A stretch of DNA of 64,000 bases from Anaerolineaceae bacterium (GTDB lineage Bacteria; Chloroflexota; Anaerolineae; Aggregatilineales; Phototrophicaceae), in NCBI GenBank assembly GCA_002699585.1, contig PABP01000004.1:105182-169181 (forward strand). The letters are read 5' to 3'. Both the position numbers and the translations under genes were made by a program. Positions 28,918 to 54,416 of this stretch are shown here, piece after piece (position 1 is the first letter of the stretch; each line of letters opens with the position of its first letter). The notes beneath the pieces were generated by a model. That model searched no databases. It was not told where the DNA came from and saw nothing but the letters and a program-made list of their open reading frames with translations.

Positions 28918-28961
28918 GCCGTCCCTCTCATAATTTGGATAACTGTGTTCTAAATAGTTGG

Positions 28962-31312: not shown

Positions 31313-31320
31313 AAATCACC

Positions 31321-32718: not shown

Positions 32719-32740
32719 GGAATAAGTCCTCTCTTAAAAA

Positions 32741-33880: not shown

Positions 33881-33881
33881 C

Positions 33882-35210: not shown

Positions 35211-35217
35211 AAAAAGG

Positions 35218-36189: not shown

Positions 36190-36206
36190 ATTTCGACGTC
36201 CTTCCC

Positions 36207-37148: not shown

Positions 37149-37321
37149 GCTTCATATTCCAGTGACTAGGTTGACGTTATGGGTGGGTGTATCCGAGGAG
37201 GGCATCCGACAACGATACCTTACGACGGATACGAGCGGACCGATAGCATTCCGGTAGGCCGTATTTTCTCGATAGAAGTGTTATTAATTGAATCGAGCCT
37301 AAGTAGAATGTTGCTATGTGT

Positions 37322-37347
37322 TGCAGGGGGATTTTACACCCCCTGCA
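37322..37347 (-). terminator. Strong hairpin between peptide-type binding-protein and permease genes
   Basis: TGCAGGGGG (37322-37330), eight-base loop, CCCCCTGCA (37339-37347): a perfect 9-bp GC-rich stem, 34 bases after the binding-protein stop. No T-tract on the minus strand. Partial termination or 3'-end protection of the binding-protein mRNA is likely. The rest of the gap to 37148 holds no gene. Confidence 0.65.
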
Positions 37348-37381
37348 TTGTTGCGTGTCATAGAACTGGTCTGGTGTGGAC

Positions 37382-38947: not shown

Positions 38948-39053
38948 GTTAGATACCCCTTCGCTATATAGATGATCCGATAAGAAATTGCTGGGTGAGG
39001 ATACCGACACTTCGAAGATTTCCCTTTGCTCCCAACCCTTAAGTTCGGTATAA

Positions 39054-39072
39054 TGGTACTATAACTGAACCA
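39054..39072. promoter_or_regulatory. GntR-type operator, site A (divergent promoter region)
   Basis: TGGTACTATAACTGAACCA has the form TGGT-N11-ACCA shared by sites B, C and D. A TATAAT hexamer (39049-39054) lies directly at its edge on the plus strand, so bound repressor would cover the transcription start of the aldolase operon. It also lies upstream of the divergent importer operon. Its flank GGTATAATGGTACT is repeated on the opposite strand at site B. Confidence 0.8.
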
Positions 39073-39102
39073 GTATTGCAAAAAAAAAGTGAACAAAAAA
39101 AC

Positions 39103-40020
39103 ATGGCCAAAATTCAGGGAATCATACCAGCACTCGTCACACCATTTGGTTCAGGCGGGGAATTCAATGCCGAAGTGTTTCGCGATATCATCCAATTTCA
39201 CCTTTCTACTGGCGTTGATGGCTTCTATGTCACCGGGGGGACCGGCGAAGGTTTGCTGTTAGATCCTGATGAACGACGCAGAATTCTTGAGGTGGCAATC
39301 GATGAAGTAGCAGGGCAGGTGCCAGTCATTGCCCATGTCGGCGCAGTTGCCACCCATACGGCTGCCGACTTGGCTGCACATGCCGCTTCGGTTGGGGCCG
39401 CTGCCATAGCAGCCATCCCTCCTATATATGTCAATGCCGACCTGGCTGGCATAAAGGAACACTATCGTCGTATTGCTAAGGCTGCCAACGGCGTGCCGAC
39501 ATGGTTATATTATGTGCCTCATGCGACGGGTGTCACCCTGACATCGAAAACATTTGCAGAACTCATGGACATCGACAACGTACGTGGTGTCAAATACACC
39601 TCCTACAACTTCTATGAAATGCACAACATCATTGAACTTGCACAAAACCGTGACTTCACCGTCATTTCCGGGCCGGATGAAATGTGCCTACCTGCTTTGA
39701 CGATGGGTGCAACCGGGGCCATCGGTACGACATACAATGTGATGCCTGGGCAATTCCTCAAGTTGTTCCGCGCATGGCAAAACAAAGACATCGAAACCGC
39801 CCAGCAGCTTCAATATCAGGCCAATCAGGTCATCAATGCCCTGTTGACTGTCCCGACACTGGCGGCAGTTAAGGCAGTTCTGAAGCGAATGGGCTTTGAT
39901 TGTGGCGTACCGCGCAGCCCTCTGCGTGGCCTGACTGTGGAAGAAGAGGAACGCTTATGGCAAGCGCTCGACGAATCTCCCTTCTCTGAAATTGCTGACA
40001 TCCCCCTAAAGGCCGTCTAA
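39103..40020 (+). CDS. N-acetylneuraminate-lyase-like class I aldolase (DapA/NAL family)
   Basis: Schiff-base TIM-barrel aldolase (305 aa) splitting off pyruvate from a 2-keto acid. Residues that bind substrate in E. coli NAL appear conserved: GGTGE (45-49), Y136, the Schiff-base lysine K164 in GVKYTS, the GPDE motif with D192 and E193, and GTTYN (208-212; GSTYN in NAL). The D-E pair contacts the sugar-acid tail and points to the NAL rather than the DapA subfamily. Start at ATG 39103; an upstream TTG (39076) lies in a poly-A leader, and no Shine-Dalgarno is visible. First gene of the plus-strand operon. KDG-type or other 2-keto-sugar-acid aldolase activity is the main alternative. Confidence 0.83.
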   Translation: MAKIQGIIPALVTPFGSGGEFNAEVFRDIIQFHLSTGVDGFYVTGGTGEGLLLDPDERRRILEVAIDEVAGQVPVIAHVGAVATHTAADLAAHAASVGAAAIAAIPPIYVNADLAGIKEHYRRIAKAANGVPTWLYYVPHATGVTLTSKTFAELMDIDNVRGVKYTSYNFYEMHNIIELAQNRDFTVISGPDEMCLPALTMGATGAIGTTYNVMPGQFLKLFRAWQNKDIETAQQLQYQANQVINALLTVPTLAAVKAVLKRMGFDCGVPRSPLRGLTVEEEERLWQALDESPFSEIADIPLKAV

Positions 40021-40022
40021 AC

Positions 40023-40967
40023 ATGGAATATTGCCAGCTAGGACGCACGACGCTAAACATCTCTCGTTTGTCACTCGGCACAGTGGCCCTGGGACTGAAC
40101 TACGGTATCGCGCCCAATTCAAACAAAGGGGCCGCACCTCCCGAATTATCAGAGTCCATTGCGCTGATTCATCAAGCGCTTGATGCTGGCATCAACTTCC
40201 TGGATACAGCCCGTGCCTACGGCAACAGCGAAGAAGTGGTGGGGCAAGCCTTACAGGGTCGTCGCGATGAAGCGGTTATCACAACCAAAGTGCAGTGCTT
40301 CGAAGATGGCGTTCCGCTGCGGGGCGATGCCCTGCGCGAGCGTATTCGCAGTTCCATCCGTCAAAGCCTGGACTTGCTGAAAACGGATTACGTCGATGTG
40401 CTCATGTTGCATAGTGCGCCAATTGAATTATTAGAAGGTGGCGAAGCCTTAGCCATGCTGGCAGAAGTGCGCGATGAGGGCTTAACACGCCATATTGGCG
40501 CTTCGACTTATGGCAGCGATGCCCCGCGTATGGCTATCGAACAGGGCGCTGAAGTCCTGCAAGTGGCCTATAGTGTGCTTGACCAGCGCATGGGCGATGA
40601 AATCTTCCCCTTGGCCAAAGAGCGCGGTGTCGGTATGGTCGTTCGCTCCGTCTATCTCAAAGGGGCACTGACCGAACGCGCCGAACAACTCCCCGATCAT
40701 CTTGAAAAACTCAAGCAAATCTCCCGCGAATACCGCCAACTGACCAGCCAGCAGGGCATTGATCCGGCTCAGGCTGCCCTCCGTTTTGTGCTTTCACAGG
40801 ACGAGGTATCAACAGCATTAGTCGGTGTGCGCAACCAAACAGAACTCCAGCTAGCGCTTGATGCGGCTGAGGCGGGTGGTTTACCGGACGATCTTTTAGC
40901 TCAGGTAACATCCTTGCGAATCGAAGAAGAAGAACTCCTAAATCCTGGCTATTGGGGAATTCCGTAA
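40023..40967 (+). CDS. Aldo-keto reductase
   Basis: NAD(P)H-dependent aldo-keto reductase (314 aa, TIM barrel). Catalytic tetrad candidates are D in FLDTARAYG, Y in the same motif, K in VITTKVQ and H in VLMLHSAP. RLSLGTVALGLNYG at the N-terminus and GVRNQTELQLALDA at the C-terminus are typical of the AKR branch near L-glyceraldehyde and pyridoxal reductases. It follows the aldolase gene by two bases, so it may reduce or oxidise the aldehyde or hexose released. Confidence 0.9.
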   Translation: MEYCQLGRTTLNISRLSLGTVALGLNYGIAPNSNKGAAPPELSESIALIHQALDAGINFLDTARAYGNSEEVVGQALQGRRDEAVITTKVQCFEDGVPLRGDALRERIRSSIRQSLDLLKTDYVDVLMLHSAPIELLEGGEALAMLAEVRDEGLTRHIGASTYGSDAPRMAIEQGAEVLQVAYSVLDQRMGDEIFPLAKERGVGMVVRSVYLKGALTERAEQLPDHLEKLKQISREYRQLTSQQGIDPAQAALRFVLSQDEVSTALVGVRNQTELQLALDAAEAGGLPDDLLAQVTSLRIEEEELLNPGYWGIP

Positions 40968-41040
40968 CCACGCCTCAGCCATCATGACGCCATACATTGA
41001 CGAGCAGCATCGATACACGGAATGAACAATGGGAGGGAAC

Positions 41041-42510
41041 ATGAAGAAGCGCATCGCTATCGGTAGCGTCTGCCACGAGACCAGTACTTTTACCCCGGTT
41101 TCTTCAACCTGGGATCGCTTCTATGTACGAGGTGAGGACATCTTCACCACATTCACCGGGACGAATACGCCCGTCGGTGGCTTCATTGACGCAGGGCAGG
41201 ATTTCGAGCTAATCCCCTTATTGTCTGCGGAAGCGCACCCCGCTGGGCCGCTCCCGCGTGAGTTGTTTGACCCAGCGCTTGATGAATTACTTCAGGCCCT
41301 ACGTGATGCCGCACCCATCGATGGGGTTCTGCTCTATCTCCATGGTTCGATGGTGGTCGGCAGCGGCGAAGACCAGATTGACGACCCCGAAGGCTACATC
41401 CTGGCCGCTGTGCGTGAGGTCATCGGCCCGGAAACACCGCTGCTTGTTCCCTTGGATATTCATTCCAATATCTCTCCGTTGATGGCTGAAATGGCGGATG
41501 CACTGGTCGTCCGCGAAACCTATCCTGAAGTGGACATGGCCGAACGCGGTCGTGAGTGCGTCAATATATTGCGCCGTATGCTCGATCAGGGCCTCAAGCC
41601 AACGATGGCCTTTTACCCGCTCCCACTCATTTGGGGGATGAACCAGGTAACGGCCCACGAACCCATGCTGAGTGCGATCAACTACGTTCACGAGATAGAA
41701 TCGCGCCCAGGTGTCATCAATGTATCGCTCAACATGGGCTATTTCCTGGCCGATGTCCCCGATATGGGGTCGTCTATTATTGTCATCACAGATAATGACC
41801 TGCAACTAGCTGAAAAATACGCCGCCGAACTGGCCCAATGGGTGTGGGATCGCCGCGAGGATTGGTACTATGACCTACCCACTGCCAAAGAAGCCTTGGC
41901 CCTGGCAGAGCAGGCCGGAGCGTTCCCCGTGATTTTGTCGGATATGCGCGATAATCCCGGTGGTGGTTCCCCCGGTGATAGTACGGGTATCCTCAAAACA
42001 TTCCTGGAAGCCAATTTGCGGGATGCTTGCATCCTCTATATTGTCGATCCTGAAGCGGCGGCTATCTGCCACGCGGCGGGTGTCGGCGCGACGGTGTCGC
42101 TTGCAGTCGGCGCCAAAGCATCCTCGTTACAAGGCGAACCCGTGCATATGCAAGCAGAGGTCATCGCACTTTCAGAAAAAGGCGAATTTGACTATGCCGG
42201 CCCCATGTTTGCCGGGTTGCATGGTCAAATGGGCCTGTCCGCCCATATTCGCCAGGGCGGTGTGCATGTTTTGCTTGTGTCTGTCCGCGAGCAACCTTTC
42301 GACATGGAATTTGCCCGCACCATGCAGCTCGATCCTCAACAGATGCGTTACATTGCCGTGAAGTCAACGGCGCACTTCCGCGCTGCCTACGAACCTTGGG
42401 CCGGGGCTATTTACATGGTTGCGGAGCAAAGCGTCCATGATTTTGGCAATTTGCCTTTTCATCGCCTGGGCCGCAAACTGTACCCCTTCGATATGACTGC
42501 TGAACTATAG
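41041..42510 (+). CDS. M81-family (MlrC-like) metalloenzyme with an altered metal ligand
   Basis: DUF1485/M81 protein (489 aa) related to MlrC, the enzyme that cleaves linearised microcystin fragments. It opens KKRIAIGSVCHETSTFTPVS, and has LLYLHGSMV and GGGSPGDSTGIL as in the family. Metal ligands D139 and H141 are present in PLDIHSNISP. The third position, normally histidine in a TYPH-x-D motif 22 residues on, is E163 (TYPEVDM). Metal choice or activity may therefore differ. Start at ATG 41041 after GGGAGG. Most M81 proteins are uncharacterised and lie beside peptide-type importers, as here. Confidence 0.85.
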   Translation: MKKRIAIGSVCHETSTFTPVSSTWDRFYVRGEDIFTTFTGTNTPVGGFIDAGQDFELIPLLSAEAHPAGPLPRELFDPALDELLQALRDAAPIDGVLLYLHGSMVVGSGEDQIDDPEGYILAAVREVIGPETPLLVPLDIHSNISPLMAEMADALVVRETYPEVDMAERGRECVNILRRMLDQGLKPTMAFYPLPLIWGMNQVTAHEPMLSAINYVHEIESRPGVINVSLNMGYFLADVPDMGSSIIVITDNDLQLAEKYAAELAQWVWDRREDWYYDLPTAKEALALAEQAGAFPVILSDMRDNPGGGSPGDSTGILKTFLEANLRDACILYIVDPEAAAICHAAGVGATVSLAVGAKASSLQGEPVHMQAEVIALSEKGEFDYAGPMFAGLHGQMGLSAHIRQGGVHVLLVSVREQPFDMEFARTMQLDPQQMRYIAVKSTAHFRAAYEPWAGAIYMVAEQSVHDFGNLPFHRLGRKLYPFDMTAEL

Positions 42511-42533
42511 ACCAGAACAGGAGATGACTTCGC

Positions 42534-43565
42534 ATGAAAATTGCGATATTACACGGGCCGCGTGATCTTCGCATCGAAGATCAAAGCCTGGACGCCAGCC
42601 AGCTCGCACCTGACGACATTCACGTCAAGACCATCATCAGCGCCTTTAAAATCGGCACCGACCGTGGTAATTACGAAGGCGCGGAACACGTCCCCGGTGC
42701 ACCCGGTTACCCGCGTTGGGTCGGCGATAGCAACCTGGGCGAGGTGCTGGCCGTCGGCAGTGCCGTTCAGCGTGTCCAGGTGGGCGACCGCATCGTGACG
42801 CGCCAGCCGCACCAATCCGAGTACATCATGAAGGAAAGCGCCAGTCTGGTCAAAGTGCCCCCCGGCGTCGATCCCGAAGATGCCGTTTATGCCCATCTCT
42901 ATGCCCTCAGTTCACTCTGCTACCGCAAAGCCTTCTTCCAACCCGGTGAAAACGTCGCTGTCGTCGGTGTCGGCGTGCTTGGCCTGGGCGCGATTGCCCT
43001 GGGACCCTTATTTGGCGCACGGGTTGTCGCCCTGGCCAATAGTCCCGTCCGCTTGGAAATGGCCGAAAAAGTCGGTGCACATGCCGGGTTCCTCTCCAAT
43101 GATCCCGATCTGGGTGCCAAGCTGGATGACTTCACACGTGGGGCAGGGTTGGATTTGGTGATTCTTACGGCCAATCCCTGGCCTGCATACCAGACCGCTG
43201 TCGATATCGTGCGACCCAATGGCCGCGTTTCCATCGTCAGCCTGTTAGGGCGCGGCGAAAATGACCTCGATTTCAACCCGTTGTCGATGGATCGCTTCTA
43301 TACCAAAGGCATTTCGTTGATCGCCGTTAGCGGCGCGGCGGGGTATCTTTACCCTGAAAATGGGGGTTCTGGGAAAACGGTAGATCGCTTTGCGCCCGAC
43401 CGGGCCGCGGAGCACGTCCTGGATTTGATGGCCGATGGCAATCTGAAGCCCAGCAGCCTGATTACCCACCGTTTTCATTACTCACAGATGGTCGAAGCCT
43501 ACGAAATGGCCTTCCGTCGTGAAAAGTCCATGCTCGGTGTCATTTTTGATTGGCGGGATGCATAG
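42534..43565 (+). CDS. Zinc-independent MDR-family dehydrogenase
   Basis: Medium-chain dehydrogenase/reductase (343 aa) with N-terminal GroES-like domain and C-terminal Rossmann domain (VAVVGVGVLGLGAIAL near 140). The catalytic-zinc cysteine and the GHE motif of alcohol dehydrogenases are replaced (KIGTDRGNYEG, VGDSNLGEV), and the structural-zinc cysteines are absent, so it is probably zinc-free. NAD(P) is the expected cofactor; substrate unknown, perhaps a sugar alcohol or hydroxy acid. GGAGA lies ahead of the ATG. It sits between the M81 and M19 genes with short gaps. Confidence 0.85.
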   Translation: MKIAILHGPRDLRIEDQSLDASQLAPDDIHVKTIISAFKIGTDRGNYEGAEHVPGAPGYPRWVGDSNLGEVLAVGSAVQRVQVGDRIVTRQPHQSEYIMKESASLVKVPPGVDPEDAVYAHLYALSSLCYRKAFFQPGENVAVVGVGVLGLGAIALGPLFGARVVALANSPVRLEMAEKVGAHAGFLSNDPDLGAKLDDFTRGAGLDLVILTANPWPAYQTAVDIVRPNGRVSIVSLLGRGENDLDFNPLSMDRFYTKGISLIAVSGAAGYLYPENGGSGKTVDRFAPDRAAEHVLDLMADGNLKPSSLITHRFHYSQMVEAYEMAFRREKSMLGVIFDWRDA

Positions 43566-43568
43566 CTC

Positions 43569-44636
43569 ATGTTTATTGTAGATGCTCATCTTGATCTATC
43601 GTGGAACGCGCTCCAGTGGAACCGCGATTTGCTACAGTCGGTCTACACCATTCGCACCCAGGAAGTTGGGATGCCCGGTAAGGGGCGTGCCCAGAATACT
43701 GTCGCCTACCCCGACATGCGCCGCGGGCAGATTGGCCTGTGTGTCGCAACACTCCTTGCTCGCTCGACAGGTCGCCCCGTTCCCCACGTGGATTTTGCCA
43801 CGCCTATGCAGTCCTATGGGGTAGCTCAGGGCCAGTTAGCCTACTATCGTGCCCTGGAAAGCCAGGGAATTGTCCGCATCATCAGCGATGCCGCCGCACT
43901 GACCGAACATGTCGCCCAATGGACTGCCGAAAATCCGTCTGCGGATTTGCCGCTGGGCTTTGTCATCAGCATGGAAGGCGCGGACCCAATTTTACAGCCC
44001 GATGATTTGCAAGCTTGGTATGATGCCGGCTTGCGTCTCTTAGGCCCAACGCACTATGGGCCGGGGCGCTACGCGGGTGGCACAGGCACGGAATTGGGCT
44101 TCACCGATATTGGCCGTGAATTGCTGAAAGAAATGCAGCGCCTGGGTATCTTGTTGGACCTGACCCATTTGTCAGACGAATCCTTCTGGGAAGCCCTCGA
44201 TCTTTACGAAGGTCCTGTCCTGGCCAGCCATCAGAACTGCCGCGCACTGGTCCCACATCAGCGCCAGTTCAGTGATGACCAGCTACGCGCTATTTTTGAG
44301 CGTGATGGCGTCATTGGTGCCGCCTTTGATAATTGGATGCTTTATCCGGGTTGGTCGGTCAATAATGCCGATAACCAGCTTGTCTCGTTAGATACCGTCG
44401 TCGGTCATATTGACCATGTTTGCCAATTAGCTGGCAATACGCGCCATGTGGCCATCGGTACCGACCTTGATGGCGGCTTCGGACGTGAGCAATCCCCGAA
44501 TGATCTGGATACCATCGCCGACCTGCAAAACCTCATTCCCTTGCTGGAAAAACGAGGCTATTCGACTAACGATATTGAAGCCATCTTTCACAAAAACTGG
44601 ATACGCTTGCTCACCGATGCCTGGGGGGCCAAATGA
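43569..44636 (+). CDS. M19-family membrane-dipeptidase-like enzyme
   Basis: Binuclear-zinc dipeptidase of the renal dipeptidase family (355 aa). Ligand candidates: H7 and D9 in DAHLDLSWN, bridging E136 in FVISMEGADP, H200 in LDLTHLSD and H221 in LASHQNCRAL, with D in AIGTDLDGGFG near the end. The family cleaves dipeptides, often with a D-residue at the C-terminal position. No signal peptide or anchor, so cytoplasmic despite the family name. It overlaps the amidohydrolase gene by four bases. With the peptide-type importer it suggests that the imported compound has, or yields, a dipeptide-like bond. Confidence 0.88.
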   Translation: MFIVDAHLDLSWNALQWNRDLLQSVYTIRTQEVGMPGKGRAQNTVAYPDMRRGQIGLCVATLLARSTGRPVPHVDFATPMQSYGVAQGQLAYYRALESQGIVRIISDAAALTEHVAQWTAENPSADLPLGFVISMEGADPILQPDDLQAWYDAGLRLLGPTHYGPGRYAGGTGTELGFTDIGRELLKEMQRLGILLDLTHLSDESFWEALDLYEGPVLASHQNCRALVPHQRQFSDDQLRAIFERDGVIGAAFDNWMLYPGWSVNNADNQLVSLDTVVGHIDHVCQLAGNTRHVAIGTDLDGGFGREQSPNDLDTIADLQNLIPLLEKRGYSTNDIEAIFHKNWIRLLTDAWGAK

Positions 44637-45631
44637 TTGCCCACGACCTGACCGATGCCGAACTCGCCTTCATTGATCGTGAGATTCGTCCTTTTTTGCC
44701 ATCGAAAATCTTTGACGCCCACGCGCATCTCTTCGCCAAGAGCAACTACAAAGACGTGCCTGCATCCTATGAGAATCTGCCAGAAAACATAGGCGTTGAT
44801 GCTTTCTACGACTATATTCAGGCCATCCACCCTGGCGCAGAGACCGTCGGCGGCCTCTTTTTTGGCCTGGTCTTTCTGGATGACCGTCAAGGGAACAATG
44901 ACTTCGTTGCCCAGGAAACGGCGAAATCTCCTTTGGATTTAGGCCAGTTGGTTGTTCCGCCCGATATGGACCCCGAACAGGTTCGGGAGGAAGTCCGTCG
45001 CGGCGGTTTTGTGGGCCTCAAGTGTTATCATGTCATGGCCGATGTCGATTACCCGACCTGGTTGGCTCCCATTGAGGACTATCTGCCAGAAGAACATATT
45101 CGCATCGCCCACGAAGAAAAACTGAGCATCACCCTGCATATGGTCCGTGACCGCGCCCTGGCCGATCCAGTGAATCAGGCGACTATCCGTCGTTACTGTG
45201 AAAAATATCCTGATATGCGCCTGATCCTGGCCCACGCCGGACGCGCTTTTAATCCCTGGCATACAATAGAAGGTATCGACAGCCTTAAGGGCCTGGATAA
45301 TGTCTGGTTCGATACGTCCGCTGTGACTGAAGCAGGCGCATTCGAAGCCATCATCGAGACAATGGGCCATGATCGTTTGCTCTATGGCAGCGACTTCCCC
45401 GTAAGTCATATGCGCGGGCGTTGTGTCGCCATTGGCGATTCATTCTATTGGTTATATGCCGATGAAATGGACCTGAACGAAAAACATACAACCCTGGAAC
45501 CCGTCATGATTGGCCTGGAATCCCTGCGTAGCCTGAACTTGGCTTTCCGGCGTACCAAGCTCAACGATTCGCAGATCGAAGACATTTTCTATAACAATGC
45601 TGCTCGCTTGTTTGACCTAGACTCAAGATAA
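44633..45631 (+). CDS. Amidohydrolase-superfamily protein (COG2159 type), copy 1
   Basis: TIM-barrel metal-dependent hydrolase or decarboxylase (332 aa). The N-terminal metal motif is KIFDAHAHLF, with later ligands in HMVRDRA, ILAHAGRAF and YGSDFPVS. The branch includes decarboxylases and lactonases as well as amidases. It starts within the stop of the dipeptidase gene (ATGA). A second member is at 51322-52212 in the same regulon. Reaction unknown. Confidence 0.83.
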   Translation: MIAHDLTDAELAFIDREIRPFLPSKIFDAHAHLFAKSNYKDVPASYENLPENIGVDAFYDYIQAIHPGAETVGGLFFGLVFLDDRQGNNDFVAQETAKSPLDLGQLVVPPDMDPEQVREEVRRGGFVGLKCYHVMADVDYPTWLAPIEDYLPEEHIRIAHEEKLSITLHMVRDRALADPVNQATIRRYCEKYPDMRLILAHAGRAFNPWHTIEGIDSLKGLDNVWFDTSAVTEAGAFEAIIETMGHDRLLYGSDFPVSHMRGRCVAIGDSFYWLYADEMDLNEKHTTLEPVMIGLESLRSLNLAFRRTKLNDSQIEDIFYNNAARLFDLDSR

Positions 45632-45647
45632 CCGGAAGGGCAGACTG

Positions 45648-46424
45648 ATGAAACGTCTACAAGACAAAATCGCGCTCATTACGGGTGCGGCACGCGGCAT
45701 TGGCGCTGGCATCGCTCGCTGCATGGCCGCAGAAGGAGCGCATATTGTCATCAATGATGTGGGCAATATGGCCGCAGCTGAAGCTACTGCTGAAGAAATT
45801 CGCGCATTAGGCTCGCAAGCTCTCATCTGGCAGGCTGATGTCTCAGACCGCGCTGCGGTCGCCGCCATGATCGAAGCTGCTGTCCAGCATTTCGGCAGGT
45901 TGGATATCGCTGTCGCCAATGCTGCCATCAGTCGCCGTGCACCCTTCCTTGAAATTGATTGGGCTGATGTACAAAAGACCCTGGAAGTTTCCCAGTTTGG
46001 GGCTTTCCATACGGCCCAACTCGCTGCCCAGCAGATGGTTCGCCAGCCTGCGCCCGCTACCGGGGCGCGTGGAAAAATCATTTTTACGGGTTCGGTGCAT
46101 CAGGAACTTCCTCTACCGAACAGTACAGCTTATAATATGGCGAAGATTGCCATCAATCATCTGGCACGTACCGTTGCTGCCGAGCTTGCAAGCGAGCGCA
46201 TCAACGTCAATGTGATTAATCCTGGCTGGATTGATACCCCTGGGGAGCGCGAATACAGCACCGAGGAGCAAATACAGGCCGGGGGCGCACGTATCCCCTG
46301 GGGCCGTATTGGCACGCCAGATGACATTGGTAAGGCGGCTGTTTTCCTGGCCAGTGACGAAGCCGACTACATCACCGGGACATCCCTACGTGTAGACGGC
46401 GGATTTGTACTAAATCGACCTTGA
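45648..46424 (+). CDS. Short-chain dehydrogenase/reductase
   Basis: Classical SDR (258 aa). Cofactor motif TGAARGIGAG (13-22), NAxA-like segment VANAAIS, catalytic S/Y/K with YNMAK, and C-terminal EADYITGTSLRVDGGF. NAD(H) or NADP(H) dependent; substrate unknown, possibly a sugar acid or hydroxy intermediate. It follows the amidohydrolase gene by 16 bases and the GntR gene begins ten bases after its end. Confidence 0.9.
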   Translation: MKRLQDKIALITGAARGIGAGIARCMAAEGAHIVINDVGNMAAAEATAEEIRALGSQALIWQADVSDRAAVAAMIEAAVQHFGRLDIAVANAAISRRAPFLEIDWADVQKTLEVSQFGAFHTAQLAAQQMVRQPAPATGARGKIIFTGSVHQELPLPNSTAYNMAKIAINHLARTVAAELASERINVNVINPGWIDTPGEREYSTEEQIQAGGARIPWGRIGTPDDIGKAAVFLASDEADYITGTSLRVDGGFVLNRP

Positions 46425-46434
46425 GGTACACGAT

Positions 46435-47115
46435 TTGTTAAAGCCCGTATCGCGTGATACGCTCACGCGCCAAGTCAAAGAAACCATCAAACGTTTTATC
46501 GTGCAAGAAGACCTTGCACCTGGGTCGCGGCTGCCCAGTGAACGCGAATTGAGCGAGTCGCTCAGCGTCAGCCGCAATATCGTCCGTGAAGCACTTAGCG
46601 GCCTGGTTTCGGAAGGTATCGTGATTAAGGAAGTCGGTCGCGGTTCCTTCGTCGGTAATGTCGATGCCGAGTTACTTACCGCATCGATTCCTGTCACATT
46701 AGGGGAAAATGGCGCGTCCGCCCAGGCTTTACGTGAAGCGCGGGTTGCCCTGGAAGCGGGTTCAATTGGGTTGATCGTCCAGCGCATCACCGATGCGGAA
46801 ATTGAGAATCTCAAGCAAATTTTAGAGAACTACGAGCAGAAGCACCAAGAGGGCAAAAGCACGGTCAAGGAAGACATCGATTTCCATCTGGCGCTGCTCA
46901 ATGCCACCCAAAATCAAGTCATACAGGATATGGCCCCGCTAGTGATGGAAGTCTTCCGACAGACGCTCATCGAAGGGCCATCGGCTATGCGTCGCAATCC
47001 CGATCGCATCATTGTCGAGCATCGCCGTATTTTAACGGCGTTGCAAGATCGCGATATCGTAGCCGCGCGCGAAGCCATGCACATTCACTTCCGCTTACAG
47101 AATTTCCCGATCTAA
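46435..47115 (+). CDS. GntR-family regulator (FadR/FCD subfamily), copy 1
   Basis: GntR regulator (226 aa). The winged helix (about 10-75) reads GSRLPSERELSESLSVSRNI, then VREALSG; the all-helical FCD domain follows (about 90-225) with metal-type ligands in DIDFHLAL, HRRIL and the final MHIHF. Start at TTG 46435, with GAGGT about seven bases ahead, matching the N-terminus of the paralogue at 50597. Encoded inside the operon it probably controls. The 19-bp sites at 39054, 47703, 50433 and 53549 are the likely targets of this protein, the paralogue, or both. Confidence 0.9.
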   Translation: MLKPVSRDTLTRQVKETIKRFIVQEDLAPGSRLPSERELSESLSVSRNIVREALSGLVSEGIVIKEVGRGSFVGNVDAELLTASIPVTLGENGASAQALREARVALEAGSIGLIVQRITDAEIENLKQILENYEQKHQEGKSTVKEDIDFHLALLNATQNQVIQDMAPLVMEVFRQTLIEGPSAMRRNPDRIIVEHRRILTALQDRDIVAAREAMHIHFRLQNFPI

Positions 47116-47159
47116 GATCACGATCTATATTCACAGTATCACTCACAAGAGAGGGCCAT

Positions 47160-47615
47160 ATGTCATTCGAAGCCAAAGTAAAAGAAATGGGTTACACCAT
47201 AGAAACGCTTGAGCTGGATGCAGGCAAGATCATGCTTGGCGTGCGTAGCGGCAACCTGATTTATACCTCCGGGCAGGTCTCTGCATACGGCGACAAGACC
47301 ATTAAAGGCAAAGTCGGTGCTGACCTCACTGTCGAACAGGGTTATGAAGCCGCTCAACTGTGCACGCTCAATTGCCTGAGTGTGATCAAGACCCTGGCGG
47401 GTGGCAGCCTGGATAACGTCAAGCAGATCGTCAAAGTCTTCGGCATGGTCAACGTCGCCCCGGATTTTGATAATACTCCCGGCGTCATTCACGGCTGTAG
47501 CGACATGCTGCTCTCCGTATTTGGTGACGCTGGTAAACATGCCCGCAGCGCCATTGGCCTGGTGGTGCCGCTCAACTTCGCTGTTGAGATCGAAATCATC
47601 GCTGAAGTCAAATAA
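47160..47615 (+). CDS. RidA-family enamine/imine deaminase
   Basis: RidA (YjgF/YER057c) family protein (151 aa, a slightly long member). LIYTSGQVSAYGDKTIKG at the N-terminus, VKQIVKVFGMVNVAPDF in the middle, and HARSAIGLVVPLNFAVEIEI with the conserved arginine that holds the substrate carboxylate. The family hydrolyses reactive enamines and imines made by PLP enzymes and amine oxidases, which suits the PLP enzymes and the DAO-type oxidase of this regulon. Last gene of the operon; a strong terminator follows 26 bases after the stop. GAGAGGG precedes the ATG. Confidence 0.9.
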   Translation: MSFEAKVKEMGYTIETLELDAGKIMLGVRSGNLIYTSGQVSAYGDKTIKGKVGADLTVEQGYEAAQLCTLNCLSVIKTLAGGSLDNVKQIVKVFGMVNVAPDFDNTPGVIHGCSDMLLSVFGDAGKHARSAIGLVVPLNFAVEIEIIAEVK

Positions 47616-47640
47616 TCGCCAGATAATGGCTTTATAACGT

Positions 47641-47680
47641 AACGGGGTCTGTAACTGACAAGTTATAGACCCCGTTTTTT
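47641..47680 (+). terminator. Rho-independent terminator of the aldolase-to-RidA operon
   Basis: AACGGGGTCT and AGACCCCGTT pair, the stem continues inward through GTAACT with AGTTAT around a GACA loop, and six Ts follow. This is a textbook intrinsic terminator. Confidence 0.93.
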
Positions 47681-47702
47681 GTTCAAAAGTGACTTGTCCT
47701 AG

Positions 47703-47721
47703 TGGTATAGTTGAAGTACCA
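47703..47721. promoter_or_regulatory. GntR-type operator, site B
   Basis: Read on the minus strand the site is TGGTACTTCAACTATACCA (TGGT-N11-ACCA), with the flank TTCGGTATAATGGTACT shared base for base with site A. It lies 46 bases ahead of the HpcH/HpaI aldolase start, just after the terminator of the previous operon, so it should control that gene. Confidence 0.8.
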
Positions 47722-47767
47722 TTATACCGAAACTATTATTCAAGGGCTTTACTAGGGAAGCAGCGTT

Positions 47768-48541
47768 ATGAGAAAAAGCAAAGTTCTGGAAAAGTGGCGT
47801 CGTGGTGAATTCGCACGGTTTTGTGCGTTAGGGCATGTGCTGCCTTTTTTTATTCGCTATGCTGCCCACTATGGCTATGATGGCATCTGGCTAGACCTCG
47901 AACATCGCAATATGGATGATCGGGAAGTCCAGCATCTATTGGCACTGTGCCAGATGTTCGATATTGATTGCATGGTCCGCCCACCGACTTTGCAGCGCTC
48001 TCGCCTGTATCGTTATCTTGAAGACGGTGCGACTGGCTTGATGATTCCCTTTGTCTCCACTGCGGAAATTGCCCGTGATCTGGTAACAGCGGTTCGCTTC
48101 CCGCCGCTCGGCAACCGTGGCCTGGATGGGGCAGGGCTAGATTGCCAGTTTGGTATCGAGTCTTGGGCACCGGGTAGCAACTATCCCGAAGATGCTAACC
48201 GAGAAACGTTTATTGTCGCTCAGATTGAAACGCCTGAAGCCGTGAATAACGCTGCCGAAGTAGCTGCTGTACCCGGTATTGATGCCCTATTTATTGGCCC
48301 TGGCGACCTGGGGCTGCGCTTATCTGTCGAGCCGACTGATATGACAATGGAAGACGCTGTTGAAAAAGTTGCTGCCGCTGCCCAACAGCACGGCAAAGTG
48401 TGGGCGCGCACAGCCAGCAGCATTGAGGAACTCGACCGTTATCGTGCGATGGGCGCCCAGATGGTTCCTTGGGGTGGCGATTTCGCCCTGATGAAAGTCC
48501 TTGAAAAAGCCAGTCAGGAATTGGACAACGTGCTCATCTAG
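47768..48541 (+). CDS. HpcH/HpaI-family 2-keto-acid aldolase
   Basis: Class II pyruvate-type aldolase (257 aa) of the HpcH/HpaI (2-dehydro-3-deoxy-glucarate and 4-hydroxy-2-oxo-heptanedioate) family. GYDGIWLDLEHR holds the early acidic and base residues, MVRPP the substrate arginine, and E in QIETPEAVNN plus D in FIGPGDLGL are the divalent-metal ligands. It would cleave a 2-keto acid to pyruvate or oxaloacetate and an aldehyde. Own promoter region with operator B; convergent with the M24 gene downstream. With the NAL-like enzyme the regulon has two independent pyruvate-releasing aldolases. Confidence 0.9.
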   Translation: MRKSKVLEKWRRGEFARFCALGHVLPFFIRYAAHYGYDGIWLDLEHRNMDDREVQHLLALCQMFDIDCMVRPPTLQRSRLYRYLEDGATGLMIPFVSTAEIARDLVTAVRFPPLGNRGLDGAGLDCQFGIESWAPGSNYPEDANRETFIVAQIETPEAVNNAAEVAAVPGIDALFIGPGDLGLRLSVEPTDMTMEDAVEKVAAAAQQHGKVWARTASSIEELDRYRAMGAQMVPWGGDFALMKVLEKASQELDNVLI

Positions 48542-48559
48542 GCACACGTCGTCTTGTAT

Positions 48560-49681
48560 TTATGGAATATTCAGATCATATGGACTGATGATTTCCGGGC
48601 CATTATCTGTCACCAACACAGCGTGCTCTAAACGCACGCCAGTTTCCCCAGGATAATAGATGCCCGGTTCCAGCATGATGACCATACCTGCTTCCAGAAT
48701 TTCTTCACTATGCGGGGTGATGCGCGGTCCTTCATGCCCGATGACCCCGGCGCCGTGCCCCGTGTGATGCGGGTAGGATGGGTATCCAGCATCCATCACG
48801 AACTGCCGCACTGTCTGGTCGATTTCGCGGGCGATGGCCCCCGGTCGTGCTAATGAGATCGCCAGTTCCAGTGCATCCGCAACTGTGCGATGCATAGCGA
48901 CCTGTTTGGAAGATGGCTCGGTCGCATAATACGTGACGCAACTGTCGCTCCAATAGCCATGCAATATCGTGCTCAAATCGACGATGAACGAGTCCGTCGG
49001 CAAAATCTCAATGTCGAGCGCCGGACCACCCATGCGCCGCCCGACTACACAGTCATTGCCCAGGTGTAGGGTTTGTCCGGCGGCTGTTTGCATCGCATTG
49101 TGGATCGCAAACCACACATCCATCTCGGAATTCCCTGGTTTAACCGTAGCCTTGGCTGCTTCCTGGCCTATTTTGATGAGTGCGAAGTTCTCGCGCATTT
49201 TGTCGAGTTCTTCATCTGTCCGCACCAGTCGATAGGGCGTCAGCCATTCATCAATATCAATCAGATCACTTGTAGATGAACGCACGACTTCAGCCAGAGC
49301 AAAAGGCAAATAACGTGCTTCAACGCCGACAGTACCCGTATTGCCTGATGCCTCCACCAGTTGACGCAGCGCTGCTTTCAGTAGGGTATGTCCCTGTGGG
49401 GCTTTCTCATAAGCGTAACCCGCATACCCGATCACCGCGCAACCCGCTTCTTGGGAAAAAGCCTCCGCTTCTGCGACCTGGCCATCCATGACGATAAGCG
49501 TGAAGTGCCCATCTTCATACCAGACCAGCGGTGGCCCACCCGCATATAAATCGGCTCCGGCACGCCAGGGACGCGCGAAGCCGGTCAGCCAGGTGACATT
49601 AGCCGGATTGGCAAACAACGCTCGATGGATAGACTTGCTTTTCAGAAGGGCGTGTGTACGTTCACGTTGTTCTTGATGCAT
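48560..49681 (-). CDS. M24-family metallopeptidase (Xaa-Pro dipeptidase-like), copy 2
   Basis: Pita-bread metallohydrolase (373 aa). N-terminal creatinase-like domain (FANPANVTWLTGFARPW), then the catalytic domain with full ligand set: D in FIVDLSTI, D in YWSDSC, H in HTGHGAG, E in MLEPGIYYPG and E in RLEHAVLV. Start at ATG 49681; a TTG two codons earlier is possible. Downstream of the CBM9-like gene on the minus strand, after about 60 bases, so the two may share the promoter at site C. Only distantly similar to the M24 enzyme at 21061. Confidence 0.88.
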   Translation of the reverse strand: MHQEQRERTHALLKSKSIHRALFANPANVTWLTGFARPWRAGADLYAGGPPLVWYEDGHFTLIVMDGQVAEAEAFSQEAGCAVIGYAGYAYEKAPQGHTLLKAALRQLVEASGNTGTVGVEARYLPFALAEVVRSSTSDLIDIDEWLTPYRLVRTDEELDKMRENFALIKIGQEAAKATVKPGNSEMDVWFAIHNAMQTAAGQTLHLGNDCVVGRRMGGPALDIEILPTDSFIVDLSTILHGYWSDSCVTYYATEPSSKQVAMHRTVADALELAISLARPGAIAREIDQTVRQFVMDAGYPSYPHHTGHGAGVIGHEGPRITPHSEEILEAGMVIMLEPGIYYPGETGVRLEHAVLVTDNGPEIISPYDLNIP

Positions 49682-49741
49682 GGGCAACTCACTATGATGA
49701 ACTTAATTGATCAATGCGCTAAAGAGTGTGTCTACGACGTC

Positions 49742-50380
49742 TCAAAATGAAAATCTAAGAATGCCAAATTGGGATGGTTCATGGAAACTTGCTGACAGGG
49801 TAGGTGACCAGCAGCTAAACTCCGGTTCTTGGCCGCGTGGGCGTTCGATACGTGTGAAGTTAGCTCGCCAAATCTCAGGGATAGGGCCATCGGGTACCAG
49901 TGCCGCCCAGGGAATAATCAGCGTAGCCACCCAATATTGTGCCTCGTCGTTACGCTCAGCCTGCCACTGAATGCCTGGACAGTCCCACTCGTGATGCACT
50001 TCGATTTGATCATGCCCTAATCCCATATTGACGATTTTGGCATCAAACAGGACCCCGTTGGGATTGATCTCAAATTCAAAGTAATGTGTCGGATCACCCT
50101 CGCCCGGTGCCAGGAAAATCTCAGCAACTTCTTCATCGTAAATCGGCTCATCCCGCTCGGTCATCGTTGCCCATATATCGGGGTCATCACATTCAAAATG
50201 AACATAAAGCGCTTTGTCATCATAACAAAGGCGCGTAACCGTTTGATAAAAGGGTGGATGATTGTTGTCGATAAGGACAAATGGAGAAAGTGGCGGGATA
50301 TGATGCCAGTCTTCATTGACATCAGCCGACCACCTTTGCGGTACCTGCGGCACGGTATAATCATGGGTTGAAGCAGACAT
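49742..50380 (-). CDS. CBM9-like carbohydrate-binding-fold protein
   Basis: Single-domain beta-sandwich protein (212 aa) resembling the family 9 carbohydrate-binding module-like (DOMON-type) domain. Landmarks: VTRLCYDDKALYVHFECDDP, EEVAEIFLAPGEGDPTHYFE, FEINPNGVLFDAKI, and the ending WSPTLSASFHEPSQFGILRF. There is no signal peptide, so it is intracellular, unusual for a binding module. Function unknown: possible sugar binding or haem-type binding as in DOMON relatives. Its promoter region contains operator C, with a TATAAT on the minus strand inside the operator. Confidence 0.8.
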   Translation of the reverse strand: MSASTHDYTVPQVPQRWSADVNEDWHHIPPLSPFVLIDNNHPPFYQTVTRLCYDDKALYVHFECDDPDIWATMTERDEPIYDEEVAEIFLAPGEGDPTHYFEFEINPNGVLFDAKIVNMGLGHDQIEVHHEWDCPGIQWQAERNDEAQYWVATLIIPWAALVPDGPIPEIWRANFTRIERPRGQEPEFSCWSPTLSASFHEPSQFGILRFSF

Positions 50381-50432
50381 GCATCCTCAACTGGGCAGAA
50401 AATTATGTATAGTTAAGACATTGGTAACGATT

Positions 50433-50451
50433 TGGTACTACCATTATACCA
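50433..50451. promoter_or_regulatory. GntR-type operator, site C
   Basis: Read on the minus strand: TGGTATAATGGTAGTACCA, the most symmetric of the four (TGGTA-N9-TACCA). It lies in the 216-base divergent gap between the CBM9-like gene and the second GntR gene. A TATAAT (minus strand, 50443-50448) falls inside it, so binding would repress the minus-strand promoter and probably autoregulate the GntR gene. Confidence 0.8.
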
Positions 50452-50596
50452 ATATGGATATTCTACAATTCCTTACGGTTTAAAGCTATAAGATCTATCA
50501 AATCTATAGCAGTTTTCCTGATGAGGTTATCGATTTGTTATATAGTAAAGATAGTACCCATTAGAACATCTGCAGAATTGAAGTCAGGGGACCAAA

Positions 50597-51292
50597 GTGA
50601 GCAGCTTATTGAGGCCCGTATCTCGTGATACGCTGACGAATCAGGCCACAGAAACGATAAAACGTTTCATTTTAGAAGAGAATATGGAGCCAGGTACAAA
50701 GCTCCCCAGCGAACGCGAATTGAGCGAGATGTTGGCCGTAAGCCGTAATATCCTGCGCGAGGCGCTGAGCGCGCTATCTGCCGAAGGCATCATCGCCAAA
50801 CAAGTAGGGCGCGGTACATTTGTCGAGGAATTCGATAAAGAAGTGGCCCTGGCCAGCCTGAGCAACAACGTTGGGGATACGACCAACGTCGTCACCGTAG
50901 AAGCGCTGAAAGAAGCTCGTGCAGCCCTGGAAATTGGCGCAGCCGGGTTGATCGTTGAGCGCATTACGTCAGAGGATATTGCGGCTTTGCAGGAAATTAT
51001 TGACCGCCATGAGGCCAAAGGGCGCGAGGGCAAAAGTACAATTAAGGAAGATATTGATTTTCATTTGGTGCTGCTTAAGGCCGCCAAGAACCCTGTTATC
51101 GAGGAAATGGCTCCGTTGGTGGTTGAGCTATTTCGTCGGACAGTGGCGCAAGCGCCGGGGGCAGTGCGCTATCCGCCAGAACGCATCATAAACGAACACC
51201 GTGCGATTCTGGCGGCCCTAGAGCAGCGGGATTTGACTGCCGTACGTGCAGCCATGCGCAGTCACTATTATTTCCAGGAATCCTCGTTCTAA
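50597..51292 (+). CDS. GntR-family regulator (FadR/FCD subfamily), copy 2
   Basis: Close paralogue of the GntR protein at 46435 (231 aa). The winged-helix part reads LRPVSRDTLTNQATETIKRF, then GTKLPSERELSEMLAVSRNI, LREALSA. The FCD domain has DIDFHLVLL, HRAILAAL and the final MRSHYYFQ. The recognition helices of the two are nearly identical (SVSRNIVREAL and AVSRNILREAL), so they probably share the 19-bp operator but may differ in effector. Starts with GTG after AGGGG. Convergent with the second amidohydrolase gene. Confidence 0.9.
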   Translation: MSSLLRPVSRDTLTNQATETIKRFILEENMEPGTKLPSERELSEMLAVSRNILREALSALSAEGIIAKQVGRGTFVEEFDKEVALASLSNNVGDTTNVVTVEALKEARAALEIGAAGLIVERITSEDIAALQEIIDRHEAKGREGKSTIKEDIDFHLVLLKAAKNPVIEEMAPLVVELFRRTVAQAPGAVRYPPERIINEHRAILAALEQRDLTAVRAAMRSHYYFQESSF

Positions 51293-51321
51293 CAACCAAG
51301 TCTGTTGGTAAAAACGGTTGT

Positions 51322-52212
51322 TTAATCCAGTCCCAACAGCCCCAGGCTATCCCGATGGATGATTTCCTCAATCTTATCTTCCGGCACGCGCGGGAAGTTA
51401 GTGCCTTCAACGATGCTGTTGACGTTACGCAGCGCGTTGATCGTTTCCTCTGCTGTAGTGACCGGGAAATCCGATCCTAGCATCAGCTTGTCTAGCACTT
51501 TCCATTCAGTTGCTCGCATGAGCGCTTCGTAGAAGCCATAGGGCCGATAGATCAACGCCGACACATCAGCATACAGATTCGGGTGCTTACGAATGACAAC
51601 CGAGCAATCGGCTGTCCAGGGATGCCCCATATGCGCCAGGATCATCTTGAGATCTGGGTAGCGCATCGCGACCTCATCCATCGCCAGCGGGTGCGAATAC
51701 GTAATGGGCGCCATCCGCACGGGTGATGTCCCCTGATGGAACAGAATCGGCATATCGTACTTCTGGGCCAGCTCATAAATCTTGAGCGCTCGCGTTTCCA
51801 GCGGGTCAAAAATCTGGTAGTTGGCACCCAGCTTGATGCCCTTCATACCCAGGTCGACCCGGCAGCGCTCGAACTCATCCAGCATATTCGGATCATGTGG
51901 ATGTAGCGCCATAAAGCCAATCAGTTTGTCCGGGTATGCATTGACGAAAGCTGCTGTCGCGTCGTTGTAGTTCCCCGGTAGGTCGCCAACATTGTGCCGA
52001 GCTTCAATCCCACCGGATACATTGGATGACGGTTGCCATGCGATATTAAAGGTGATGACCTTGTCCGCCATTTTTTCGGCTTCCATAAAGTCATCCCAAT
52101 TCGTCACAGCCTTTACTTTGCGGTCGGGCCGCCATACATCGTTGTAGACGATTTTGTCTTCCGGGATTTCCCCGCGATATTGGGGTGGGTGCGTATGGAC
52201 ATCAACAATCAT
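51322..52212 (-). CDS. Amidohydrolase-superfamily protein (COG2159 type), copy 2
   Basis: TIM-barrel metal-dependent hydrolase or decarboxylase (296 aa). Begins MIVDVHTHPPQYRG with the HxH motif, then ILFHQGTSPVRM, MILAHMGHPW and MLGSDFPVTTAEE as later ligand segments. GGAG lies ahead of the ATG. It follows the second GSAM-like gene by 30 bases on the same strand and must share the promoter at site D. Same superfamily branch as 44633-45631 but clearly diverged. Confidence 0.85.
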   Translation of the reverse strand: MIVDVHTHPPQYRGEIPEDKIVYNDVWRPDRKVKAVTNWDDFMEAEKMADKVITFNIAWQPSSNVSGGIEARHNVGDLPGNYNDATAAFVNAYPDKLIGFMALHPHDPNMLDEFERCRVDLGMKGIKLGANYQIFDPLETRALKIYELAQKYDMPILFHQGTSPVRMAPITYSHPLAMDEVAMRYPDLKMILAHMGHPWTADCSVVIRKHPNLYADVSALIYRPYGFYEALMRATEWKVLDKLMLGSDFPVTTAEETINALRNVNSIVEGTNFPRVPEDKIEEIIHRDSLGLLGLD

Positions 52213-52242
52213 GGCAACTTACTCCAGACAGGTTTTTCAGCG

Positions 52243-53511
52243 TTAAGAAAGAACTTCGTCAACGATTTCGAGCGTGCGGTCGATATCGGCTTTGGTATGG
52301 GCCAGGCTAATGTGATTGCGCTTGAGGTTCACAGGCAGCTCGTAGACGCCTTTTTCAATCAGCTTGCGACGATGGGCGACGAAGGTTTCGACGTCGTTGT
52401 TCAGCAGGTCCGTATAGGTATTGGCGGGGCCATCCATGAAGTAAGTCACAAACACCGAACCAAACCCGGCAACAGTAGCTGTAACATCATGCCGTGCATA
52501 AATCTCGCGCAAACCATCTCGCATCCGGTCACCCATCGCGAATAGGTGCGCGTGGCTTTCCGGTTGTTCCAGAATGCCAACCGTCGCCAGCGAAGCCGCG
52601 ATACCCACCGGATGGGCGTTAAACGTCCCAGCGAAGAAGACGCTGCCACCAGGGCGGCAGTATTGCATCAAGTCCTCACGACCACCCAGGGCCGCCAGCG
52701 GGTAGCCATTGGCAATCGCCTTGCCAAACGTTGTCAGGTCGGGGGTGATGCCGACAATCGACTGATAGCCGCCTACGGCATGGCGGAACCCGGTGATAAC
52801 CTCGTCGAAGATCAGCACGGTACCATGCTTGGTTGTCAGGTCACGCAGAGCCTGTAGGAATTCCTTACGCGGCATGACGCAGCCAATATTGTGTGGGATC
52901 GGCTCCAATATCACGGCTGCAATTGAGTCGCCCTCTTCATCAAAGAGCGCATTAGCCGCCTCAACATCGTTGAAGGGTAGTACCAGCGTATCTTCGATGA
53001 GTTCTGGCGTCATACCCGCAGAAATCGGGTCTTTCTTGCCGATTTTGTCCGGTGCGCTGATGACGTTCATCAAAACGGCATCGTGCCAACCATGATAGCA
53101 GCCCTGGAACTTGACGATCTTGCGTCGTCCGGTTGCTGCCTTGGCCAGTCGCAAGGCGGAATAAGTGGCTTCAGAGCCGGAGTTGCAGAACATCACTTTA
53201 TTGGCGCTAGGGATATGTCCGACGATCTTTTCTGCCAACTGGGCTTCACGCTCACTGGTGCCCACGCCAATCAAATCGTGTTTTGACAGTTCCTCATAGA
53301 CTTGCCGATTGACTTCCGGGTGGCAATGTCCCAGAACTGGCGGGCCGAATGCGGCATGGTAGTCAATGTATTGCTTACCATCGGCGTCAAAAATATAGGC
53401 CCCTTCGGCACGGGTGAAAGTAATATTTGGCTCAACAAGGCGGTTAGCGCTGCTGACGCCACCGGGAATAAACTGCTGTGCATGATTGAAGATGGCTTGG
53501 GATTCGCTCAT
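52243..53511 (-). CDS. Class III aminotransferase, glutamate-1-semialdehyde-aminomutase-like, copy 2
   Basis: PLP enzyme (422 aa), closer to true GSAM than copy 1: FIPGGVSSANRLVEPNITFT at the N-terminus, FCNSGSEATYSALRLAKAAT at the phosphate-binding loop, VLIFDEVITGFRHAVGG for the PLP aspartate, and FGKAIANGYPLAAL with the PLP lysine. Its context (amidohydrolase downstream, dioxygenase divergent, GntR operator between) argues for catabolism of an amino acid or amino aldehyde rather than haem biosynthesis. AAGGT precedes the ATG. Aminomutase, transaminase and racemase activities are all known among relatives. Confidence 0.87.
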   Translation of the reverse strand: MSESQAIFNHAQQFIPGGVSSANRLVEPNITFTRAEGAYIFDADGKQYIDYHAAFGPPVLGHCHPEVNRQVYEELSKHDLIGVGTSEREAQLAEKIVGHIPSANKVMFCNSGSEATYSALRLAKAATGRRKIVKFQGCYHGWHDAVLMNVISAPDKIGKKDPISAGMTPELIEDTLVLPFNDVEAANALFDEEGDSIAAVILEPIPHNIGCVMPRKEFLQALRDLTTKHGTVLIFDEVITGFRHAVGGYQSIVGITPDLTTFGKAIANGYPLAALGGREDLMQYCRPGGSVFFAGTFNAHPVGIAASLATVGILEQPESHAHLFAMGDRMRDGLREIYARHDVTATVAGFGSVFVTYFMDGPANTYTDLLNNDVETFVAHRRKLIEKGVYELPVNLKRNHISLAHTKADIDRTLEIVDEVLS

Positions 53512-53534
53512 GATGACCTTTTTTGGGGCAATGT

Positions 53535-53563
53535 TTTACATTCTCAACTGGTTCTATTATAAT
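53535..53563 (+). promoter_or_regulatory. Sigma-70-type promoter for the dioxygenase/DSD1 operon
   Basis: TTTACA (53535-53540), a 17-base spacer and TATAAT (53558-53563) make a near-consensus promoter reading on the plus strand, with the dioxygenase start about 40 bases on. Operator D overlaps the spacer and -10 box. Confidence 0.7.
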
Positions 53564-53567
53564 ACCA
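53549..53567. promoter_or_regulatory. GntR-type operator, site D
   Basis: TGGTTCTATTATAATACCA (TGGT-N11-ACCA) lies in the short divergent gap between the second GSAM-like gene and the dioxygenase gene and covers the -10 box of the latter. Its place is ideal for a repressor of both directions. Confidence 0.78.
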
Positions 53568-53603
53568 CTGAACCTTTTCGGCAAATACAATGTCCGGGAG
53601 TTA

Positions 53604-54356: not shown

Positions 54357-54416
54357 GTATGTGACTGATTTGTGGCTTTTGATCTACTGGATCTCGAACC
54401 ATTGGAGCACTGACCC

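Follow-up and report, generated by a model that had tools for sequence, protein, structure and literature searches.

In a 64,000-nucleotide window of the genome of Anaerolineaceae bacterium GCA_002699585.1 (contig PABP01000004.1; genome 6.7 Mb), four sites, A to D, are in our estimate, with a probability of about 0.78, copies of one conserved operator whose usual unit is GGT-N5-GGT-N11-ACC, and the two FCD-type GntR paralogues encoded there, GntR1 and GntR2, are predicted to bind it and likely to repress the surrounding catabolic gene cluster together with their own genes. The unit covers approximately 28 bp, reads GGTATAnTGGTACTATAAnTRWACCAnT and comprises a pair of direct boxes spaced by 8 bp, followed by a third in inverted orientation. 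It is present in A, B and D, whereas C is without the outer box and instead has TGGT-N3-ACCA nested in its 19-mer. A first-pass annotation of this DNA had proposed a 19-bp TGGT-N11-ACCA operator; this 19-mer is found in all four sites (39054-39072, 47703-47721, 50433-50451 and 53549-53567, the coordinates that it gave), but the usual operator is longer, with its further box lying 8 bp outside the 19-mer. The four sites are as follows.

Operator A, 39047 to 39074, plus strand: three boxes, GGTATAAT GGTACTATAACTGA ACCAGT, flanked by the importer operon and the DHDPS-to-RidA operon.
Operator B, 47701 to 47728, minus strand: three boxes, in front of the gene for HpcH aldolase.
Operator C, 50433 to 50453, plus strand: no outer GGT box, nested TGGT-N3-ACCA at 50433-50443, between the CBM9 gene and the gene for GntR2.
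Operator D, 53547 to 53574, minus strand: three boxes, GGTTCAGT GGTATTATAATAGA ACCAGT, flanked by the aminotransferase/amidohydrolase pair and the PhyH/DSD1 pair.

The flank common to A and B was also correctly described (TTCGGTATAATGGTACT), as was the intergenic placement of all four sites, which overlap zero coding bases given an ATG at 39103 for the DHDPS gene and at 53607 for the PhyH gene. A mechanically chosen TTG at 53523 would put D within the PhyH open reading frame; the start was taken as 53607 (residue 29) because homology to the syntenic relative G009 begins there. TGGT-N11-ACCA occurs six times in the window, the remaining two copies (38472 and 61944) being coding, where 1.18 would be expected per 64 kb from the density in the genome (P for at least six, 0.0014). 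Four copies were seen in the 4,788 intergenic bases of the window against 0.089 expected (P = 2.4e-6), and when spacings of 0 to 24 were compared in this intergenic DNA, N11 alone was found more than once. Genome-wide, the bare pattern shows no enrichment, with 124 places against 132 for a reversed control, and it was rejected on these counts as a genome-wide marker. The first-pass annotation had named commonness at random genomic positions as grounds for abandoning its proposal; since the bare motif is common elsewhere, those grounds apply to it, but not to the extended motif. The sequence GGTATAATGGTA has three exact matches in the genome, at A, B and C only, and with one mismatch its counts are no higher than those of the reversed control (5 + 6 against 13 + 10). 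The idea of a dispersed regulon had to be given up, as the four sites lie within 14.5 kb and a genome-wide model search at E ≤ 5 gave, besides them, a single weak place (E 0.2). This weak match (G000:C28:893634-893657; loci L011 and L083), outside the cluster, reads TGGTATTACAATGGTACCA and then GTATAAT.

For comparison we used relatives that are metagenome-assembled genomes of Chloroflexota, class Anaerolineae. G009 is syntenic over 27418-55466 with protein identities of 66-91%, the M24 gene alone being unmatched, and its intergenic DNA outside the sites aligns poorly. Here 29 bases at A are unchanged, D falls in a run of 43 identical bases and B retains AGTTGAAGTACCATT-TACC; at C the alignment fails, and G009 has its own, different TGGT-N11-ACCA at the same place (TGGTACTATTGTAGAACCA). 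Three of ten GntR-bearing genomes that lay outside our motif model (G265, G416 and G424) lack the motif. Further copies occur in G024 (GntR 55-57% identical), with close A-like copies before DHDPS genes on two contigs, and in G015, with a site before its HpcH orthologue. A second peptide-type importer locus in G009, G024 and G027 has two sites approximately 2 kb apart, one of the G009 pair reaching only E 0.06.

The motif model, R1, was built from eleven sites of four genomes and includes the outer box. A second, core-only position weight matrix was confined to the 19-bp core and built on eight sites of the window and G009. Scanning with this matrix yielded 27 additional sites in the loci covered, 20 with GGT at -8 and two more with GGC; outside the core boxes, GGT or ACC stays below three occurrences at every other offset between -16 and +23. 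Some of these 27 lie in loci that had been retrieved through R1 matches, and loci L033, L036 and L088 contain sites used in R1. Restricting the analysis to core-matrix sites within approximately 13 kb of GntR in genomes outside R1, two distant sites on the G294 contig being left out, GGT is present in 7 of 12 in the best orientation and GGC in one more. For another of the 12, GGT appears if the opposite orientation is taken, and the P of 1.7e-12 computed for 8/12 includes this re-read site and hence is too small. Three later sites (GGT, GGT and GGC) are counted neither in the 27 nor in the 35 sites referred to below.

The same counts bear on a simpler explanation, that a 19-bp TGGT-N11-ACCA palindrome is bound by one GntR dimer and that the outer GGT is there by coincidence or belongs to a promoter -10 element. 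The 19-mer is indeed in all four sites, with the outer box missing in C, and TATAnT stands at -6 to -1 in 12 of 35 sites. However, an incidental GGT does not sit easily with its fixed offset in 20 of the 27 core-only sites, GG at -8/-7 is retained in 29 of the 35 sites, 17 of these being without TATA, and the outer box of B points away from HpcH; moreover, FadR-type dimers in a published survey have 2-3 nt between GT and AC (PMC4494728), far fewer than the 11 nt seen here. We therefore regard a single-dimer palindrome as unlikely, and the outer box as a mere -10 element was rejected on the 17 sites without TATA.

The three-box operator also tracks its predicted regulator. Among 101 relatives a GntR orthologue (E ≤ 1e-30) is present in five, and R1 matches at E ≤ 0.05 occur in those same five only (at E ≤ 0.5, in 14 of the 101); four of the five gave model sites and G027 did not. 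Across 396 genomes of the class, GntR at E ≤ 1e-45 is found in 10, R1 at E ≤ 0.03 in 11 and both in seven (Fisher 1.3e-10), and without two training genomes the corresponding numbers are 8, 9 and 5 (Fisher 8.9e-8), both values being subject to the non-independence of genomes within one family. Some chance matches are expected at E ≤ 0.03 over 396 genomes; a reversed control model matches three of them, one of which has GntR.

Ten GntR-bearing genomes contributed no site to R1 (G027, G462, G237, G294, G430, G455, G230, G424, G265 and G416). In six of these a copy lies ahead of GntR or of what appears to be its operon, and a model match anywhere is found in seven. The distance from the end of the site to the stretch matching GntR residue 1 or 2 is approximately 66 bp in G237, 146 bp in G294, 190 bp in G430, 20 bp in G230 and 19 bp in G462, and in G455 the site lies before an aldo-keto reductase gene adjoining GntR. 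In G462 (7.8 Mb), all four matches at E ≤ 0.1 are confined to a 31-kb stretch of a single contig around GntR, where they precede an M81 gene with a divergent DSD1-like gene, the GSAM-M19-SDR-HpcH orthologues, an ADH-amidohydrolase pair and GntR itself; this locus holds much of the gene set of the window in a changed order.

The two regulators are encoded among the sites.

GntR1, 46435 to 47115, plus strand: FCD-type GntR regulator, assigned by Pfam GntR and FCD and by fold.
GntR2, 50597 to 51292, plus strand: FCD-type GntR regulator, 57% identical to GntR1.

As had been proposed, they are paralogous FadR-type GntR proteins with near-identical recognition helices. Both exceed the Pfam cut-offs for GntR and FCD, with the FCD domain at residues ~99-224, which places them in the FadR (FCD) subfamily. 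A fold search gave FCD GntR structures, with full-length TM-scores of just ~0.4-0.5 for the listed matches, and an AlphaFold2 monomer (mean pLDDT 79) is consistent with the FCD-GntR fold and uninformative on DNA spacing. The recognition-helix sequence SRNI(V/L/I)REAL is retained in 16 of 16 aligned orthologues, as are the metal-type FCD residues D-x3-H, H, H, scored by eye and assigned via an alignment with DgoR (PMC7674646). This retention suggests that the orthologues share a single DNA specificity and that their ligand is a carboxylate bound with the help of a metal, as has been reported for DgoR (PMC7674646).

These features bear on whether some other DNA-binding protein, for example a YtrA-type GntR with GT and AC widely spaced, binds the sites, the FCD-GntR genes being merely targets. 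The YtrA subfamily is described as having long spacing (PMC4494728), and in four genomes of the class the motif is matched although a close FCD GntR is missing. On the other hand, the motif co-occurs with and adjoins FCD GntR in several families and the recognition-helix sequence is retained throughout the aligned orthologues. GntR1 and GntR2 themselves carry FCD domains and not the C-terminal domain of ~50 residues that marks YtrA proteins. We judge a different binder to be improbable, though no search aimed at YtrA-type genes was made; synteny, co-occurrence and position before the GntR gene support a link of the motif to the FCD-GntR proteins.

The genes beside the sites form the following units, their limits being drawn from spacing and strand.

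Importer unit, 27418 to 39010, minus strand: likely target; peptide-type importer (substrate-binding protein 37382-39010, permeases), aminotransferase III, BNR propeller and further genes by Pfam, with same-strand order kept in G009; putative operon.
DHDPS-to-RidA unit, 39103 to 47615, plus strand: likely target; DHDPS/NanA-like lyase, aldo-keto reductase, M81, ADH, M19, amidohydrolase, SDR, GntR1 and RidA by Pfam; putative operon.
HpcH/HpaI aldolase, 47768 to 48541, plus strand: likely target.
CBM9 protein and M24 peptidase-like protein, 48560 to 50380, minus strand: likely target pair, M24 being unmatched in the G009 locus.
GSAM-type aminotransferase and amidohydrolase, 51322 to 53511, minus strand: likely target pair.
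PhyH dioxygenase and DSD1/BhcC-like protein, 53607 to 55466, plus strand: likely target pair.

These six units, all of which the first-pass annotation had assigned to the regulon, start beside sites, but its list was incomplete, as the GntR2 gene is a seventh likely target. The regulon in this genome is therefore likely to be one local cluster of seven units beside four sites, and both regulators would be autoregulated. GSAM-type aminotransferases at 33882-35252 and 52243-53511, approximately 30% identical, fall in two different units of the predicted regulon. Directly beyond the cluster, at 55655-56443, lies a multihaem NapC/NirT-like and cytochrome c3-like gene with no model site nearby.

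Promoter-like and terminator-like features were found at B and D.

Promoter-like TTTACA-N17-TATAAT, 53535 to 53563, plus strand: toward PhyH and over D, 11 of 12 positions (two sites found, 0.4 expected).
Promoter-like TTGCCG-N17-TATAAT, 53556 to 53584, minus strand: toward the aminotransferase, 10 of 12.
Weak promoter-like TTCAAA-N18-TATAGT, 47682 to 47711, plus strand: toward HpcH, ending inside B, 9 of 12.
Second weak promoter-like match at B, 47711-47739.
Terminator-like hairpin, 47641 to 47676, plus strand: after RidA and before B.

At D the promoter matches are arranged back to back and their -10 hexamers overlap inside the operator (TATAAT at 53558-53563 on the plus strand and 53561-53556 on the minus strand), as in bidirectional promoters. 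This pair, spanning 53535-53584 with its shared palindromic -10, lies within the block conserved in G009. Overlap of the sites with TATAAT boxes, claimed for several, is seen at the edge of A, on the minus strand in B and C, and in D, but a strict sigma-70 promoter scan gives one match on each strand at D, the two weak ones at B and none at A or C, where such promoters were discarded. It could be argued from D, and from reports that bidirectional promoters are common in bacteria (PMC12825309), that the conserved blocks are promoters only and not operators. We consider this very improbable, because TGGT and ACCA rather than promoter hexamers are the most conserved letters of the motif, the motif follows the GntR gene across genomes, and A and C score no promoter.

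Several observations weigh against a GntR-bound three-box operator, in addition to the fetching of some core-matrix sites through R1 and the relatedness of genomes behind the Fisher values. C is without its outer box, the bare motif shows no genome-wide excess and strict promoter matches are missing at A and C, as given above. In G027 the sites are on a contig other than that of GntR. G265, G416 and G424 have GntR, and in them a model match at E ≤ 0.1 was not found; in G416 and G424 there are just weaker core palindromes near genes. Conversely, G172, G234, G353 and G408 have a motif match and no close GntR (none, or a best E of 1.3e-23 to 7e-31).

Two of these groups gave further observations. 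G172 (L120, 9165) and G234 (L121, 8543), of one other genus and with no close GntR1 orthologue, have a common variant site, GGTACTTTGGTACTAT-GCAAAACCA, which is perhaps used by another regulator. G416, whose GntR is only 44% identical, has a palindrome without the outer box, TGGTTCTTTAAATGAACCA, before a DHDPS homologue that is 48% identical (L119, 5949).

Under the three-box reading, binding of GntR would cover the -10 regions that overlap the boxes and exclude RNA polymerase, and occupancy of the single operator at D would shut off both divergent units at the same time. A carboxylate derived from the imported substrate could then bind the FCD domain at its metal site and release the repressor. 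Boxes at -8, 0 and +14 would correspond to dimers stepped by 8 bp with one strong half-site each, a fit that follows from the two-fold symmetry of GntR dimers; in terms of spacing, 11 = 3 + 8 with the outer box at 8, which fits symmetric dimers on an 8-bp lattice. We tentatively extend this to a more general scheme, which is possible although the odds are against it: FCD-GntR proteins without the NanR extension would put three dimers on an 8-bp lattice with half-sites facing either way, GGT(-8), GGT(0) and ACC(+14) would form one cooperative operator of which N3 palindromes and NanR tandem repeats are special cases, and a symmetric -10 in the lattice would place two divergent units under the control of a single complex, within a nonulosonate-like catabolic regulon of uncultured Anaerolineae.

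As to the substrate, the solved structures that the DHDPS-family protein (39103-40020) matches best are N-acetylneuraminate lyases (top hit E 5e-50, whereas the top DHDPS reaches 5e-41), but it falls below the NCBIfam cut-off for N-acetylneuraminate lyase (258 of 281 bits). BNR propellers are encoded both by the importer operon and by the second importer loci; among solved structures they match an uncharacterised protein best and sialidases next. Propellers of this BNR (sialidase-fold) type and a NanA-like lyase are found repeatedly beside peptide-type importers in the regulated loci, in the window (32741-33880 and 39103-40020) and in L084 (5901-6905 and 7906-9054), L086 (1463-2467) and L087 (8438-9574). 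This recurrence hints at a sialic-acid-like substrate, which, resting on homology, is a lead and not a result.

The closest multi-box system for comparison is NanR of E. coli, also an FCD-type GntR, three dimers of which bind the (GGTATA)3 operator in a manner that needs an N-terminal extension (PMC8012715); its direct repeats, about 8 bp apart, are given elsewhere as TGGTATAW (PMC4494728). The likeness extends to GGTATA-like boxes in tandem, to NanR being among the closest solved relatives of GntR1 and GntR2, and to a NanA-like lyase gene in the cluster. However, in A, B and D a direct pair spaced by 8 bp is followed by a third box that is inverted. The 32-residue cooperative extension of NanR is also mostly missing: the alignment starts at query residue 3 against NanR residue 25, and the open frame of GntR1 (233 codons, for a protein of 226 residues) leaves room for no more than 7 additional residues. 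Membership of NanR itself was rejected on this N-terminus and on NCBIfam NanR scores (95 and 106 bits, where the cut-off is 260). GntR1 and GntR2 may work in a NanR-like way, but since NanR needs its extension for the three-dimer assembly and they are without most of it, any cooperative contact must be elsewhere.

Compared with canonical operators of the FadR subfamily (such as those of PdhR, LldR and DgoR), the TGGT/ACCA boxes and the FCD regulator are shared, and C contains TGGT-N3-ACCA. Suvorova et al. (PMC4494728) give TKGT/ACMA boxes with 3 or 2 nt between GT and AC in the surveyed sites, naming NanR and BioR as exceptions; here the boxes are present but the GT-AC spacing is 11 nt, an inner N3 pair occurs in C only and most copies have a strong direct outer box. 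The D promoter matches, with -10 hexamers overlapping on opposite strands, resemble bidirectional promoters with a shared symmetric -10 (PMC12825309), except that they are sequence matches and that the symmetric -10 sits inside a predicted repressor site. Among open-licence papers on multi-box GntR operators and on GntR motifs of Chloroflexi or Anaerolineae, the operator was not found described. It would widen the operator grammar of FadR-type regulators by an 11-nt GT-AC spacing and a third box and could connect canonical palindromes with NanR tandem repeats, and, in a class of bacteria sparsely represented in culture, one regulator family gains an operator and a likely regulon, backed by genomes outside the motif building. 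Weaker extra half-sites 7-12 nt from the centre have been reported for GntR-family sites with short palindromes (PMC4494728); the further box here falls within 7-12 nt if measured box to box, but is nearly as conserved as the core and stands at a fixed 8 bp from a wide palindrome. The three-box operator is thus made of known boxes and the extra half-site idea, with a main spacing outside the reported range.

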